Of a stretch of 32,368 nt of DNA, positions 2,827-32,356 are shown piece by piece. The DNA lies in NCBI GenBank assembly GCA_015296085.1, contig DVDT01000009.1, positions 1-32,368 on the forward strand, written 5' to 3'. Source of the DNA: Trichormus sp. M33_DOE_039 (lineage in GTDB: Bacteria > Cyanobacteriota > Cyanobacteriia > Cyanobacteriales > Nostocaceae). The notes under the pieces are model-generated. The model saw nothing but the letters and a program-made list of their open reading frames with translations, made no database searches and was not told where the DNA came from. Both the position numbers and the translations under genes were made by a program. Each line of letters opens with the position of its first letter. The first letter of the stretch is position 1.

Positions 2827-3097
2827 GATCTTTATCGCCTCTGTTTACTGAGATCAAGATGTCATTAGGAAGTGATACTCCTAGTCTAGATAGGCTTCCC
2901 AAAAGTTGTAGTAGTGAACACCGTCCGAGTTTTCAACACTTCTTATTGGGAATTCCTTTCTGGTCATGAGTTAATAATTGCCATTTCTTTTATGTTGCAC
3001 TCAAAATCAGATTTGTGGGCGATTATCAGAGGAATTTGATGTAAATTGACAAACTATCAATAACTGCAACAATTTAGCAAATATTTTTTATTTATTT

Positions 3098-4444: not shown

Positions 4445-5044
4445 GGAGTTCGGTTGATTTAAGTTTGCGAAATAATAGGCTATGTTTCTATTTTGAGCTA
4501 AAAAATAATCTGTCTGTGTTATCTGTCAACTTAAAGCAGAGTTAGAGTTGATTGAGAGAGGAGCATGATACCATTTCACGAAAAACCTGATACAGATGTA
4601 AACCCTGAAAGTTTTGCTGCATCTCAGTTTTTTAATTGCGAATTGCGTTAGTGAAGCGGGGCGTTAGCCCATTGCGAATTGTGAATTGGTATGAGTATTT
4701 GATTTTTAAACTTTTTTAGTTGAATTAAACACAAGAATTTCTAGCGCGCAATTACAGGCATAGGATTGAGAAGAGTAAAAATAAAGTAATTGTTGAATAT
4801 TCTCTGTGATGTTTTACCTAAACCGCTACAAGGTAATTGACCAAATATTGAGGAGTTAATGGATTAAAAAACTCCATCCAGGGGAGGATGGAGTTTTCTG
4901 GGTATGGGGAATGGGGTAGGCAGTGCGGTATTGGGTTTTTCCCAAGTGGGGCAACTGCCGTCATGGGGAATGGGGAAGAATTTACCATTACGCCCCTAAA
5001 ATATATTAATGTGTTGGGAAGATTTTTTGACAAGAATCACAGAT
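4445..5044. other. Non-coding spacer with degenerate repeats and a terminator
   Basis: It holds the promoter side of the GTPase gene, a short GC-rich patch (4636-4680: gcgttagtgaagcggggcgttagcccattgcg) of the kind dispersed through Nostoc genomes, the hairpin at 4868-4897, and a G-rich repeat at 4900-4980 in which tggggaatgggg occurs twice around a ggcagt...actgcc inverted repeat. Small frames here (4818-5073) have no coding character. Confidence 0.6.
4868..4897 (-). terminator. Intrinsic terminator of the permease gene
   Basis: A perfect 12-bp stem (aaaactccatcc / ggatggagtttt) has a 6-nt loop. Read on the minus strand, the stem runs into TTTTTAA. It lies about 150 nt downstream of the permease stop. 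Confidence 0.8.
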
Positions 5045-6340
5045 TTAATTGTACTGGAATAGCGATCGCCTGATTTTATGCCAAACTAATCCAGCCACAA
5101 TTAATCCTAAACCGACTTGCCAAATCGCAGACTCCACCCAAAAAGCCAGGAATAGACAAGATAACAAGCCTAACCAACCTATCCACACAGGATACAGGCG
5201 TTCTGAAGCAGGCATTCTTAAAGCGGCGAAATTGGTGATGGCGTAGTAAATCAAAACGCTAAAGGCACTAAACGACCATGTGGTTTTGACATTGCCTAAT
5301 AATACTAGAAGCGCGATCGCAATTCCCACAACTATCACAGCCGCAGAAGGTGCTGTTTGTGCTTGATTCAAACGGGCTAAAAATTTGGGAGCATCTGCAC
5401 GTCTACCCATTGCTAATAAGACGCGAGATAATCCTAAAATTAAGTTTAACAACACGCCCAACATCGCAGCGATCGCACCTACGGCTAAAACTACAGCAGC
5501 ACCTGTACCACCTACACTCCGGGCTACAACTTCCAACGGCGCGGCTTTTGTCTGTCCCGTTGCATTAGCTAAAGTCCCCACACCTACAGCCCCAATTCCC
5601 ACCGTCGCCACAGTGATGTATAACAACATCGTCAGCAGCAAACAAACAATCATCGCTTTGGGAATTGTTTCCCTCGGAGAACGCGCTTCTTCCCCCATAG
5701 TGGCAATGCGTCCGTAGCCTGTGTAAGCCACAAACATCAAAGCACTAGCATGAAGCACATCCCCCCAAGAACTACTAAAAAAAGGCGTTAAATTGTTAAC
5801 TCCTTGAGTCACCGCACGCGGTAGACAAATCAAAATAAAGACAGATAAAGATAACAGCGTGACTGAGACAATGACGATATTAGTCAGATTAGAACGTTTA
5901 ATCCCAGTCAGAACCACCAAAGTCATAATTACTACAGCCAAGACAGCTACAGGAATTACCCAATTGGAACTCACACCCAAGAGATTGAGTAAGTAACCTG
6001 CAAACCCCAAAGCAGCCGTCGCCGCCGAAGCCGTCTTAGCGACTAAAAACATCCAACCTGCGCTGAAACCAAAAGCCGGGGTGAGATATTTGTAACCATA
6101 TTCATAACTACCACCACTAACTGGATGATTAGCTGCTAGCTGCGCGCTATTGAGTCCGTTACAAGTAGCGACAATTGCTCCAATGGCTACGGCTAAAATG
6201 ACTGCTGGCCCTGCAATACCAGCCGCGATACCAATGCTGACAAATACACCCGTACCAACAATCGAACCCAGTCCCATGAGTGTCGCACCGAAAACCCCTA
6301 ACTCTCGTTGGAGTTGGGGTGGTGAATTGGTGACAGACAT
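5045..6340 (-). CDS. APC-superfamily amino acid permease
   Basis: This 431-residue, very hydrophobic protein has about 12 predicted membrane helices. The first helix carries the APC signature GATLMGLGSIVGTGVFVSIG; a later segment has the conserved GYGRIATMGEEARSPRETIPKA loop. It imports or exchanges amino acids or related compounds at the inner membrane; the substrate cannot be read from sequence. The start ATG at 6340 has GGGAGA 8 nt upstream on the minus strand. It lies 121 bp downstream of the P450 gene in the same direction and could be the third gene of a coq4-like / P450 / permease transcription unit, or have its own promoter in that gap. Confidence 0.9.
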   Translation of the reverse strand: MSVTNSPPQLQRELGVFGATLMGLGSIVGTGVFVSIGIAAGIAGPAVILAVAIGAIVATCNGLNSAQLAANHPVSGGSYEYGYKYLTPAFGFSAGWMFLVAKTASAATAALGFAGYLLNLLGVSSNWVIPVAVLAVVIMTLVVLTGIKRSNLTNIVIVSVTLLSLSVFILICLPRAVTQGVNNLTPFFSSSWGDVLHASALMFVAYTGYGRIATMGEEARSPRETIPKAMIVCLLLTMLLYITVATVGIGAVGVGTLANATGQTKAAPLEVVARSVGGTGAAVVLAVGAIAAMLGVLLNLILGLSRVLLAMGRRADAPKFLARLNQAQTAPSAAVIVVGIAIALLVLLGNVKTTWSFSAFSVLIYYAITNFAALRMPASERLYPVWIGWLGLLSCLFLAFWVESAIWQVGLGLIVAGLVWHKIRRSLFQYN

Positions 6341-16230: not shown

Positions 16231-16315
16231 GGAGAGGTGGCAGAGTGGTTGAATGCGACGCACTCGAAATGCGTTTTGGGGCAACTCAACGGGGGTTCGA
16301 ATCCCCCCCTCTCCG
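16231..16315 (+). tRNA. trnS: tRNA-Ser(CGA)
   Basis: It has an acceptor stem ggagagg / cctctcc with discriminator G, a D arm beginning tggcagagtggttgaatg, an anticodon stem acgca/tgcgt with loop ctcgaaa (anticodon CGA, reads UCG), the long variable arm expected for a class II serine tRNA (ttggggcaactcaa), and a T arm gggggttcgaatccccc. It is 85 nt with no encoded CCA. It stands alone; the small-RNA array starts about 120 bp downstream on the same strand. Confidence 0.96.
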
Positions 16316-16468
16316 TTTAATCTGATTCAGTATACATCTGCACATTTCATTACAGATATAAGATGGGTGAAAGGTTTCAATAGTGGTCACGCAATATCAA
16401 ATTGTGAGAAATTTAAACACATCCCTGAGAGAGATGACCTAAAACAAAAGTAGTTCTAAATTAATCCT

Positions 16469-16522
16469 GGTGTGTCGAATAACTGCTTTCTATGGAGGTT
16501 TAGCACTGGCTAAACCTTTTTT
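16469..16522 (+). ncRNA. Predicted sRNA unit A
   Basis: The promoter is ATGACC (16434-16439), 17 bp, then TAAATT (16457-16462); the transcript start is predicted near 16469. The terminator stem ggtttagc/gctaaacc (16497-16516) has a 4-nt loop and six T. The predicted RNA is about 54 nt. Its promoter block (gatgacctaaa...aaattag/a) closely matches unit F. Confidence 0.75.
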
Positions 16523-16691
16523 ATCGGGAGCGAAATTTTGATATATGATGTGGGGACTATTTGATTATTCACAATGACTGTTAATATTATCAGAATTCAA
16601 ATTACCCTCATCTACTTTTAATACATCTGATGATATATTTACACGCCCATAGATAGATGGACTAAAGTAATATTTAAAATATATTATATAG

Positions 16692-16744
16692 CATATGGTA
16701 AACTCTTGGTATTGATAGGCTTGGTCATTATCCAAGCCTATTTT
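16692..16744 (+). ncRNA. Predicted sRNA unit B
   Basis: The promoter is ATGGAC (16657-16662), 17 bp, then TATATT (16680-16685). The leader carries GTAAACTCTTGGTAT (16698-16712), shared with units D and F. The terminator stem ataggcttgg/ccaagcctat (16715-16741) has a 7-nt loop; the T tract is short (TTTTG). Confidence 0.72.
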
Positions 16745-17037
16745 GTCAGAATCTTCCGAAACATTTGCAAATAGCTTAATCAATATTAATAACACATTGA
16801 ATCAAAAAAATTATACAATTACTATTTAGTTTATAAAAAAACTCAGTCAATCAAGATTCATGGAATTCATGATAAATAATTTTTGATATTGTAAAAATTT
16901 CTCACTCTATTTTCTGCTTATCTCCTACTTCAGAATTCTCTCTAAAACAGTAGTTTTAGTAATTAAATGGCATTGTGATACATTGTATCTTTCCCTAGAT
17001 GGGGGACATCAACTTTCTCAATAGCTATAATTTAACC

Positions 17038-17094
17038 TGTTAATGCCTGAAAAACGTGTGTGTACCCTGGATAAAATTCCAGGGCATTATTTTT
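17038..17094 (+). ncRNA. Predicted sRNA unit C
   Basis: The promoter is GGGACA (17003-17008), 17 bp, then the consensus TATAAT (17026-17031). The terminator stem ccctgg/ccaggg (17065-17084) has an 8-nt loop, followed by cattattttt. It is the most diverged copy in leader sequence but keeps the spacing. Confidence 0.65.
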
Positions 17095-17315
17095 AATTGC
17101 GCCCATCTATGAAATTATTTCTCTCAAAATTACATCTCATAACTCTTGTATAGAAATTTTTTATGTAATTTATCGGAATAAGTCTCTTTCATCTTTGACT
17201 ATTAAAGTTCGCCAAGCTTCACTGGACGCATTCATTATTATTCATAGCCGTATACTTTGAATTATCTGGGTGTTCCATCCCATTAAAATTTAAAAAAATA
17301 CAAATACGCTGGTAA

Positions 17316-17335
17316 GGATTTAGCAATGCTAAACC
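17316..17335 (+). other. Probable decayed sRNA unit between C and D
   Basis: ggatttagcaatgctaaacc resembles the terminator stem of unit A (tttagc/gctaaa), but one base is bulged, no T tract follows and no correctly spaced promoter lies upstream. I read it as the remnant of a seventh copy. Confidence 0.4.
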
Positions 17336-17567
17336 TCTACGAAAAATTTATGTGTATCAGGATTTTATTAAAAAGTTATAAGCAATAATCCAATGAGGTT
17401 CCGTTAAGCATAAAAAGTAAAAATAAAATATAAATCACTGAAATAAATGACTTTATAAAGAAGTTCTATATTGAAATGACTACTGGCAATACATACCAGA
17501 TTTACTCAATTTTGTACACACCTTTTTGATGGATGAATTATGTTTAGATTAGGCATAAATTAATGAC

Positions 17568-17622
17568 ATATGGTAAACACCTGGTATACCTAGAGGCTGA
17601 GTAAAAACTCAAGCCTCTTTTT
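17568..17622 (+). ncRNA. Predicted sRNA unit D
   Basis: The promoter is ATGAAT (17533-17538), 17 bp, then TAAATT (17556-17561). The leader carries GTAAACACCTGGTAT (17573-17587). The terminator stem gaggctgagt/actc-a-agcctc (17593-17617), with one bulged A, is followed by five T. Confidence 0.74.
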
Positions 17623-17763
17623 ACTTTTTATGACTATTTATTATTTCCATGCTATTAATTTTGAGTTAATGTTTTAAAGTTTATTGGTATATCATTTACA
17701 GCCTTATAGTGATACATACTCCAGGAAGATGATATGTAATGGCAGCCAGCTTAAATTATGTTT

Positions 17764-17817
17764 GTACGTTGTTAAGCACAGCAATTACCAAGGTTTGGTT
17801 ATAACCAAACCTTTTTT
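17764..17817 (+). ncRNA. Predicted sRNA unit E
   Basis: The promoter is ATGATA (17729-17734), 17 bp, then TAAATT (17752-17757). The terminator is a perfect 24-nt palindrome (17790-17813: aaggtttggtta and its complement) followed by T residues to 17817. Relative to B and F the stem shows paired changes (ggTttgg/ccaAacc against ggCttgg/ccaGcc). Confidence 0.75.
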
Positions 17818-17912
17818 ATGATTAACTAAATTAGTACATATCAGTTTTTAGATAATTTGTATACACTCTCAAGACAGATGACCTAAAGTAAGAGTGGGTT
17901 TAAATTAGTGTT

Positions 17913-17965
17913 GGTGTAGTAAATGCTTGGTATATATTTAGGCTTGGTATACCCAAGCCTTTTTT
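17913..17965 (+). ncRNA. Predicted sRNA unit F
   Basis: The promoter is ATGACC (17878-17883), 17 bp, then TAAATT (17901-17906). The leader carries GTAAATGCTTGGTAT (17919-17933). The terminator stem aggcttgg/ccaagcct (17940-17960) has a 5-nt loop and six T. It is the last unit before ruvC, whose stop is 200 bp on in the opposite direction. Confidence 0.76.
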
Positions 17966-18094
17966 ATGAAAAACTAGAATAACTTGATATTATTTTAAGT
18001 ATTATTAGTGGTGATATCATATCATTTTATAACCTATACACTGTATTTTTAGAATTCAAAGTTTTAATTAAAATCTGGTATTCCAAAGATTAGT

Positions 18095-18141
18095 TTACTT
18101 CAGTGGGGACTTAACTGAAAAGTATATTTATGCTGAAGTAA
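18095..18141. repeat. Inverted repeat downstream of ruvC
   Basis: ttacttcag (18095-18103) and ctgaagtaa (18133-18141) form a perfect 9-bp stem with a 29-nt loop, about 25 nt after the ruvC stop on the minus strand. It may be the ruvC transcript end, though no T tract follows. Confidence 0.4.
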
Positions 18142-18165: not shown

Positions 18166-18657
18166 CTACAATTGAAAACACGCAGTTAGAGCCAAAGCCA
18201 AACCATCCGCAGCATCATCAGGCTGGGGTATATCTTCTAAATTCAACTCGCGTGCAACAGCTTCTTGCACTTCTGATTTATCAGCATTGCCATAGCCAGT
18301 CAAAGCTTGTTTAATTTGAGCAGGAGTATATTCTACATAAGGCAGATTGTGTTGTGCCAAGGTTAACATTACTACACCTCTAGCTTGTGCCACTAGTATG
18401 GTGCTTGACATACGATAGAAGAATAGTTTTTCTATTGCTACCAAATCCGGCTGCAAATGGTCGATTAGAGTATGTAAATCATCAAACAAGGTACACAGGC
18501 GTTGTCCCATATCTGTGTCTTTTGAGGTTCTGATGACCCCAAAGTCCAAGATATTGACTGTTGTATCTTTTATGAGGCTTGGGTTTTTTGTGCAGGTGAT
18601 TGCCCCAAATCCTAAAATTGCTAGTCCTGGATCTAATCCTAAAATTCGCTGTTCCAT
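18166..18657 (-). CDS. ruvC: RuvC Holliday junction endonuclease
   Basis: RuvC cuts four-way DNA junctions made during recombination, working with RuvAB. With ATG at 18657 it is 163 residues ([18 protein letters not shown]); a TTG at 18675 in frame would add six residues. The catalytic acidic residues are in LGLDPG, AIEKLFF and the C-terminal [15 protein letters not shown]. The [21 protein letters not shown] block and [16 protein letters not shown] are also typical. It is divergent from the YvcK-like gene. Confidence 0.95.
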
Positions 18658-18815
18658 GTAAGTTGTTGTAACCAAGCCTAGTTATTTGGCAGTATTAACT
18701 GTCTGCCCTTAGTTTAAATACAGCAGAAAATTTCCATTATTTTACACTTGGTGTTAAAACCAGTTAGTGTACATTTTCTGTTAATTATTGTTTGTACCAC
18801 TGTTCCGAATCAGGT

Positions 18816-32237: not shown

Positions 32238-32356
32238 ACCTGGCGCCGAGCGATTGTGGCGGGAGGCAACCCTCCAACTATCGTAGCCGCAGCAGCGTTT
32301 CACCTCTGAGTTCGGGATGGAATCAGTGTGGTTCCACCGCGCCATAGACACCAGGA
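32238..32356 (-). rRNA. rrf: 5S ribosomal RNA
   Basis: On the minus strand the sequence begins TCCTGGTGTCTATGGCGC and includes the universal CCATCCCGAACTCAGAGGTGAAAC block and the 3' pairing partner GGCGCCAGG. It is about 119 nt, the normal length. In cyanobacterial rRNA operons 5S is last, so 23S and 16S should lie beyond the right edge of the window on the minus strand. The ends are placed by pairing of the terminal helix and may be off by 1-2 nt. Confidence 0.95.

Follow-up and report, generated by a model that had tools for sequence, protein, structure and literature searches.

The closest described systems to the locus analyzed here are two kinds of small RNA (sRNA) genes of heterocyst-forming cyanobacteria. 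The NsiR1 genes are transcribed from DIF1 promoters upstream of hetF; 7 of their 12 copies in Nostoc PCC 7120 are identical, and NsiR1 siblings with different targets have been reported (PMC9045159). The second, 4547237r of Nostoc PCC 7120, is a 51-nt sRNA demonstrated by primer extension and Northern blot, which lies 319 nt on from NsiR8 (4547556r) on the same strand. More of this RNA was reported in dense cultures and under prolonged nitrogen deficiency, and homologues were found in 12 of 27 heterocystous genomes and only in heterocystous cyanobacteria (PMC4734099). The analysis below expands an orphan Rfam entry, known from a Northern blot but lacking an assigned function, to a multi-gene sRNA family that can be recognized by its promoter.

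The window, which is the whole stretch of DNA that was analyzed, comprises 32,368 nucleotides of Trichormus sp. M33_DOE_039 (contig DVDT01000009.1); genomes, contigs, and loci are denoted by G, C, and L numbers. A sequence-only reading of the window had proposed six tandem sRNA units downstream of a tRNA-Ser gene. The spacer between tRNA-Ser(CGA) and ruvC was found to contain six promoter-hairpin units (u1 to u6, 16407-17967), all on the plus strand (Table 1), and the neighbors of the array in the window are proB, tRNA-Ser, and ruvC. A test profile of 35 relatives that included no window rows recovered all six units, at 87.8, 73.0, 62.8, 54.6, 54.3, and 20.7 bits, above the best of 50 dinucleotide-shuffled windows (12.0 bits); an additional window match of 12.2 bits was the reverse strand of the u2 hairpin. 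The six-unit array was hence confirmed in the interval proposed.

Table 1. Features of the array and other parts of the window. Hexamers at -35 were taken at the set 17-bp distance. R1 is the covariance model of the units and R2 the promoter model; RF02596 scores are given as bits and E-value.
Feature	Position	Strand	-35/-10	-10 position	Predicted start	Terminator hairpin	Core	R1 (bits)	Without own class and window rows (bits)	RF02596	Remarks
tRNA-Ser(CGA)	16231-16315										5' boundary of the array spacer
u1	16407..16524	+	ATGACC/TAAATT		~16468	16497-16516	GTGTCGAATAACTGCTTTC	101.5	41.5	22.6, E 0.13 (chance level alone)	
u2	16630..16746	+	ATGGAC/TATATT	16680	~16691	16717-16739	TATGGTAAACTCTTGGTAT	89.4	40.4	21.9, E 0.19	
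u3	16976..17097	+	GGGACA/TATAAT	17026	~17037	17065-17084	TAATGCCTGAAAAACGTGT	46.1	nothing >8	unlisted	divergent; 20.7 bits without window rows; absent from R2 list
Dispersed repeat	17277-17366										unrelated to the units; holds a TTTAGCA...TGCTAAA hairpin; 75-91% identical matches elsewhere in G004, G013, G015, G018, and G021
u4	17506..17629	+	ATGAAT/TAAATT	17556	~17567	17592-17618	TATGGTAAACACCTGGTAT	88.0	38.2	unlisted	
u5	17702..17819	+	ATGATA/TAAATT	17752	~17763	17790-17813	GTTGTTAAGCACAGCAAT	80.4	29.3	30.8, E 0.0014	below cut-off 35.7
u6	17851..17967	+	ATGACC/TAAATT	17901	~17912	17940-17960	GTGTAGTAAATGCTTGGTAT	114.2	76.4	18.6, E 1.3	
Shared promoter, best example	17855..17908	+									TTTGTATACACTCTCAAGACAGATGACC, 17-bp spacer, TAAATTA; before u6
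ruvC	18166-18675										convergent with u6, the last array unit
5S rRNA gene	32238-32355	-									at contig end

Other details of the unit anatomy stood only in part. Each unit had been credited with a -35 element exactly 17 bp from its -10 element; the -10 elements are present, but the -35 hexamers are poor, the 17 bp is a set value and not a measured one, and a generic sigma-70 scan, which returned 15 promoter-like sites vs 12.1 expected (not enriched), recovered u3 alone as described. Similarly, a terminator hairpin with a T tract is present in every unit, but it begins 36-40 bp past the -10 start and not within the narrower 39-40 bp. A terminator scan identified four sites vs 0.6 expected, three of them in u3, u5, and u6 and the fourth on the opposite strand. 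Because the -35 hexamers are poor and the generic promoter scan is weak, the significance of the units rests on conservation.

Kinship among the units was observed when the class of each was withheld from the profile. Five units were recovered without their own class (Table 1), where shuffled maxima ranged from 10.2 to 12.9 bits, and u1, u2, u4, u5, and u6 are therefore paralogues. The remaining unit, u3, was not recovered by the profile lacking its class; it departs from the others in its promoter sequence yet accompanies them in the array, and may be either a distant relative or a separate sRNA. In the covariance model R1, constructed from an alignment of 41 units with the hairpin placed by eye, 87.5% of the hairpin cells were paired vs 79.1% in shuffled alignments, and changes on both sides were found in 7 of 9 pairs (41 such cells vs 14.3 shuffled). 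Further pair types, one of five covariation measures, were not above chance (153/500), and RNAalifold unaided keeps five of the nine pairs.

Comparison of each unit with its relatives showed that the RNA core was kept while the promoter spacer and the downstream sequence drifted, with conservation of 86-95% in the core vs 47-75% in the spacer and 31-63% downstream (68 of 77 rows, those with a core identity of <=75% having been dropped). A conserved 5' core characterizes each class and differs from one class to the next. Among 80 named loci, exact cores, counted with the listed variants of each class accepted, were found in 51/51 u6, 63/64 u5, 34/39 u3, and 87/98 u2/u4 units, and in 33/51 u1, 5/11 u8, and 3/18 u9 units; the core itself varies in some classes (u1 and u9).

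The distribution of the array was assessed at several taxonomic depths. When 16231-18000 was searched by BLAST in 40 relatives, all 12 other genomes of the genus proved to contain array sequence. The proposed setting between a tRNA and ruvC is true of the window, but tRNA-Ser adjoins the array only in G001, G010, and G012 among the matches listed for those 12 genomes, and the array lies elsewhere in the others. The suggested search with a covariance model built from the units did reach related genomes: R1 matched all 13 genomes of the genus with 4-8 copies each (E <=0.001), and at E <=1e-4 it had matches in 59 of the 388 genomes from the order and in 37 of the 386 from the phylum, every one in the family of the window (f1). 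Twelve f1 genomes in the order set and five in the phylum set were listed without a match.

The 80 named loci (L051-L130; 81 stretches by scan count) came from a pattern scan of named genomes and are biased to u4 and u6, because the scan pattern was derived from these two units. They included the genera Nostoc, Anabaena, Dolichospermum, Nodularia, Aphanizomenon, Cylindrospermum, and similar ones; all the named host genera are Nostocales known as heterocyst formers. R1 had 392 matches in these loci at E <=0.1 (the best 300 of 392 listed), and 332 of 350 units could be classed, leaving 18 unclassified. The order of classes u1, u8, u3, u5, u6, and u9 was the same in 317/317 pairs, and u2/u4, pooled because the two intergrade, lay between u1/u8 and u5 in 98/98. 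Under an alternative labelling with extra u4 core variants, 33/252 neighbors were out of order, all involving u4. No mixed-strand array was present among 104 loci. Two units stand divergently side by side at G149:C1:1579278-1579561 and at G300:C1:1407493-1407780, both in one genus of small genomes, and three CRISPR-DR15 repeats were observed about 240 nt past u6 in G008 (L032, 5610-5792).

For a set of 332 units from the window and the 80 loci, none of 329 classed units had its nearest relative in its own array, and 327 of the 329 had a relative of the same class as the nearest; the latter figure is partly circular, because the core defines the class and sits in the alignment, while the own-array figure is not. 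Mean identity was 57.4% between different units within one array vs 74.6% within a class across loci (20% sample of pairs). In the tree, u1, u3, u5, u8, and u9 each formed a single clade, while u6 (24/52) and u2/u4 (67/99) did not. The unit duplications are older than these genera. The initial view of several tandem sRNA genes, old and under selection, is supported. Of the two roles first considered for the multiple copies, gene dosage is disfavored by the low identity within arrays and by nearest relatives that lie outside the own array throughout, and target diversification is the more likely explanation.

The same data bear on whether each unit represents a mobile or selfish element of the MITE type with promoter-like ends, which appears highly improbable. 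The units are indeed multicopy, their genomic places vary, and a true dispersed repeat is present in the same spacer, but the class order is fixed, recent copies within arrays are absent, the constraint is class-specific, and the copy number per genome is low (4-8 within the genus). Three core patterns each had 0 matches in a viral contig collection, and 23 records of a plasmid collection matched 16231-18000, where the 20 listed match the tRNA alone.

The flanking genes of the array differ between clades. Two-component neighbors were considered as a functional link and set aside, as the largest cluster of flanking ORFs (43, from the flanks of 104 loci) was a mixture of different kinases and regulators from a few clades. 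That the units act in cis, as leaders or attenuators of neighboring genes, or encode tiny proteins would agree with promoter-terminator units near genes and with an ATG in some cores (u6). There is, however, very little probability left for this, since neighbors change between clades for both the array and the free-standing copy described below, u6 is convergent with ruvC, two-base length changes past the u6 core (L031 and L035) would break a reading frame, and the hairpin covaries.

A promoter of one type was identified before most units. In an alignment of 36 promoters, from which u3 was left out and to which the free-standing copy u7 contributed one row, ATTTG-A-ACA-CCT-TAGGAAGATGAAC is shared 5' of the spacer and followed by TAAATTA; besides u6 (Table 1), this type precedes u1, u2, u4, and u5. 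When R2, a model of the promoter alone, was run on the 13 genomes, array units and u7 ranked first, followed by a drop to chance, and the strongest other sites scored 25.0 and 23.2 bits (both in G005) and 20.8 bits (G002). In the genome of the window, five of the six units (not u3) and u7 were listed. The match to the u7 promoter was limited to the upstream half in several genomes and was at chance level in G009. The motif is nearly private to this sRNA family in the 13 genomes and therefore points to a dedicated regulator. With its conserved upstream motif, weak -35, and TAAATTA -10, this promoter type looks activator-dependent.

The seventh unit, u7, stands free on another contig (G000:C98:132140-132261) and scored 66.5 bits with R1, which had been built without it. 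It scores 84.3 bits against RF02596, 'cyano_het_sRNA' (gathering cut-off 35.7), and the orthologous seventh copy is likewise RF02596 in every one of the 13 genomes of the genus. None of the window units reaches that cut-off: u5 comes closest, u3 and u4 were unlisted even at a relaxed threshold, and the scores of u1, u2, and u6 are no better than matches to unrelated enterobacterial families. One unit at or above the cut-off was found in 7 of 24 array loci scanned, namely u5 in L050, L032, L082, and L051, a unit in L087, and u9 in L044 and L123.

The sRNA NsiR8, which reaches its own cut-off in 8 of 13 u7 loci, is a same-strand neighbor of RF02596. The distance from the NsiR8 start to the u7 start was 319 nt in L178 and L181, 318 nt in L174, and 317 nt in L185, and it differed in L132, L175, L179, and L183. 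NsiR8 and RF02596 lie at 4917-5077 and 4645-4700 in L132 and at 1333-1504 and 1652-1708 in L178. The spacing from NsiR8, the size, and the Rfam names suggest that u7 is 4547237r. Contrary to the initial suggestion, the family is hence not wholly undescribed: u7 is RF02596 and, by spacing, probably the published 4547237r (PMC4734099). No published account of the array, the paralogy, or the shared promoter was found in a literature search that covered few subscription journals. The range of RF02596, restricted to heterocystous cyanobacteria, holds for R1 as well, with all matches within f1 (388 + 386 genomes), and five window units (by R2, which has u7 among its 36 rows) have the RF02596-type promoter.

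Apart from NsiR8, the neighbors of u7 change between genomes. In 5 of 13 loci (L178, L179, L181, L183, and L185), a gene read from its sequence as encoding an ABC-type substrate-binding protein is situated upstream of u7, on the strand opposite to it. Placement of 4547237r by its distance to hetF was also attempted within the genus and was uninformative, as gene order is scrambled.

The tandem short sRNAs of a heterocyst former also invite comparison with NsiR1, and a diverged, HetR-dependent, heterocyst-specific NsiR1 array would share that arrangement. RF02399 (NsiR1) had no match in the window at the gathering threshold, nor in 16300-18100 at E <=5, whereas five copies were identified at another locus of the same genome (L166). 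The gene downstream of that array, which encodes a CHAT-domain protein on contig C60, is presumably hetF. R1 in turn found nothing above chance in this array labelled NsiR1 by Rfam (best 7.1 bits, E 1). In the loci examined, the sequence around the units (700 nt on the upstream side, 300 nt on the downstream side) contained no TCCGGA except one in L059. The absence of a DIF-type motif noted in the sequence-only reading holds, and the window units have neither a DIF1 promoter nor a position upstream of hetF. It is scarcely credible, therefore, that the array is a diverged NsiR1 array, and its initial separation from NsiR1 was correct.

Within the NsiR1 array itself (L166, 3000-3890), TCCGGA occurs just at 3064, 3196, and 3906; with three motifs for five RF02399 copies, not every copy seems to own a perfect DIF1. 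NsiR8 was considered as a companion of the array as well and rejected: no TCCGGA is nearby save the one in L059, and NsiR8 adjoins u7 instead.

The evidence makes it likely that the locus is a tandem cluster of six independent sRNA genes, ancient paralogues (u3 possibly excepted) of RF02596/4547237r, that are co-induced and act in trans as antisense RNAs with diverged targets. Each unit, with its own promoter of one common type and its own terminator, would yield an RNA of about 50-57 nt composed of a class-specific 5' pairing region and a terminator hairpin. The units may be induced together by a single signal, which, to judge from the report on the PCC 7120 copy, would probably be stationary phase or prolonged starvation; each RNA may then use its own core to pair in trans with a separate set of mRNAs, mostly close to the translation start, resulting in repression. 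The anatomy, in which an own promoter, a class-specific 5' region, a terminator, and changing neighbors are combined, fits trans-acting antisense sRNAs. The predicted folds leave the 5' part mostly open in u1 and u3 and partly paired in u2, u4, u5, u6, and u7.

Candidate targets were searched in the 13 genomes with the reverse complements of the u6, u5, and u7 cores (<=3 mismatches, own units removed). Target-like sites vs a reversed-pattern control numbered 53 vs 17 for u6, 26 vs 26 for u5, and 18 vs 8 for u7, where related genomes share sites and the reversed pattern has a different dinucleotide make-up. Most of the sites examined were inside or antisense to genes; for example, one u6 site that recurs between genomes faces a gene in antisense orientation, and one recurring u5 site is deep inside a conserved gene. 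Among the distinct sites examined, those in start regions were 1/49 for u6, 1/23 for u5, and 2/18 for u7, by a rule that missed the G004 orthologue of one u7 site. Candidate u6 sites fall in a leader preceding a DppB-like permease gene (G002 and G005) and across the start codon of a gene for an AraC-type regulator (G001). The DppB-like leader, beside a superoxide dismutase-like gene by protein reading, is complementary to the u6 core and conserved between G005 and G002 (reverse strand of both L205, 1501-1519, and L294, about 150 nt 5' of the dppB-like start).

Only one candidate site was retained among orthologues. Ahead of the start codon of a PEP-CTERM-like gene, a stretch of 30 nt would pair with u7 at -30.6 (G002), -37.8 (G004), -30.1 (G005), and -20.4 kcal/mol (G006), as calculated with the u7 sequence of one genome for all four, and 1, 0, 0, and 37 of 300 shuffles, respectively, were as good; these counts are not p-values, because the site was picked after the search. 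The site is thus kept in G002, G004, and G005 and weak in G006. A search of 24 genomes (E <=1e-12) located this gene in 4, and Pfam had no family for the protein, whose C terminus gives the reading of a secreted PEP-CTERM-like protein. Since u7 is far more widespread than this gene, the gene is at best one of several u7 targets.

Alternatively, the RNAs could be expressed but bind or titrate a protein or other RNAs as sponges, with the cores as binding sites. The searches for u5, u6, and u7 yielded no strongly supported mRNA target, and some core-core or self pairings beat shuffles, where u4-u4 and u4-u6 had 0/100 as good (36 pairs, uncorrected). The cores differ between classes, however, and yet each is kept, which suits separate RNA partners over one common protein, and the one candidate u7 site on an mRNA is kept in orthologues; sponges are considered unlikely. 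For the antisense cluster, a broader and more tentative proposal, for which the chances are somewhat short of even, is that RF02596 is one of about nine ancient siblings (u1-u9, with u2/u4 intergrading) under one dedicated promoter type and in fixed order across Nostocaceae, such that one regulator would control many RNA outputs with their own target sets, and that u7 would repress the exported PEP-CTERM-like protein at the start codon where the gene is present. With a recognizable promoter and defined classes, the regulator can be sought by the promoter and the targets class by class, and, as the array is confined to one family of heterocyst formers, it may be asked which program needs it.

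The comparison with known systems places the array closest to RF02596, which the window units resemble in architecture and size as well as in the promoter motif and in part of the sequence; u7 differs in being a single free-standing gene with its own core (GGGATGTTGTTATGCACTGGA), whereas the window units are tandem, carry other cores, and score below the cut-off. NsiR1 likewise consists of short tandem sRNAs, each with its own promoter and terminator, but the copies in the present array are old, all different, at another locus, and unmatched by RF02399. Among other bacteria, the Qrr and PrrF siblings are co-regulated paralogous sRNAs, some of them in tandem, with a largely common pairing region, whereas it is in this region that the classes described here differ. 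The array hence offers a clear case of sRNA paralogues whose pairing regions diverged long ago and have since been stationary, unlike the identical central NsiR1 copies.
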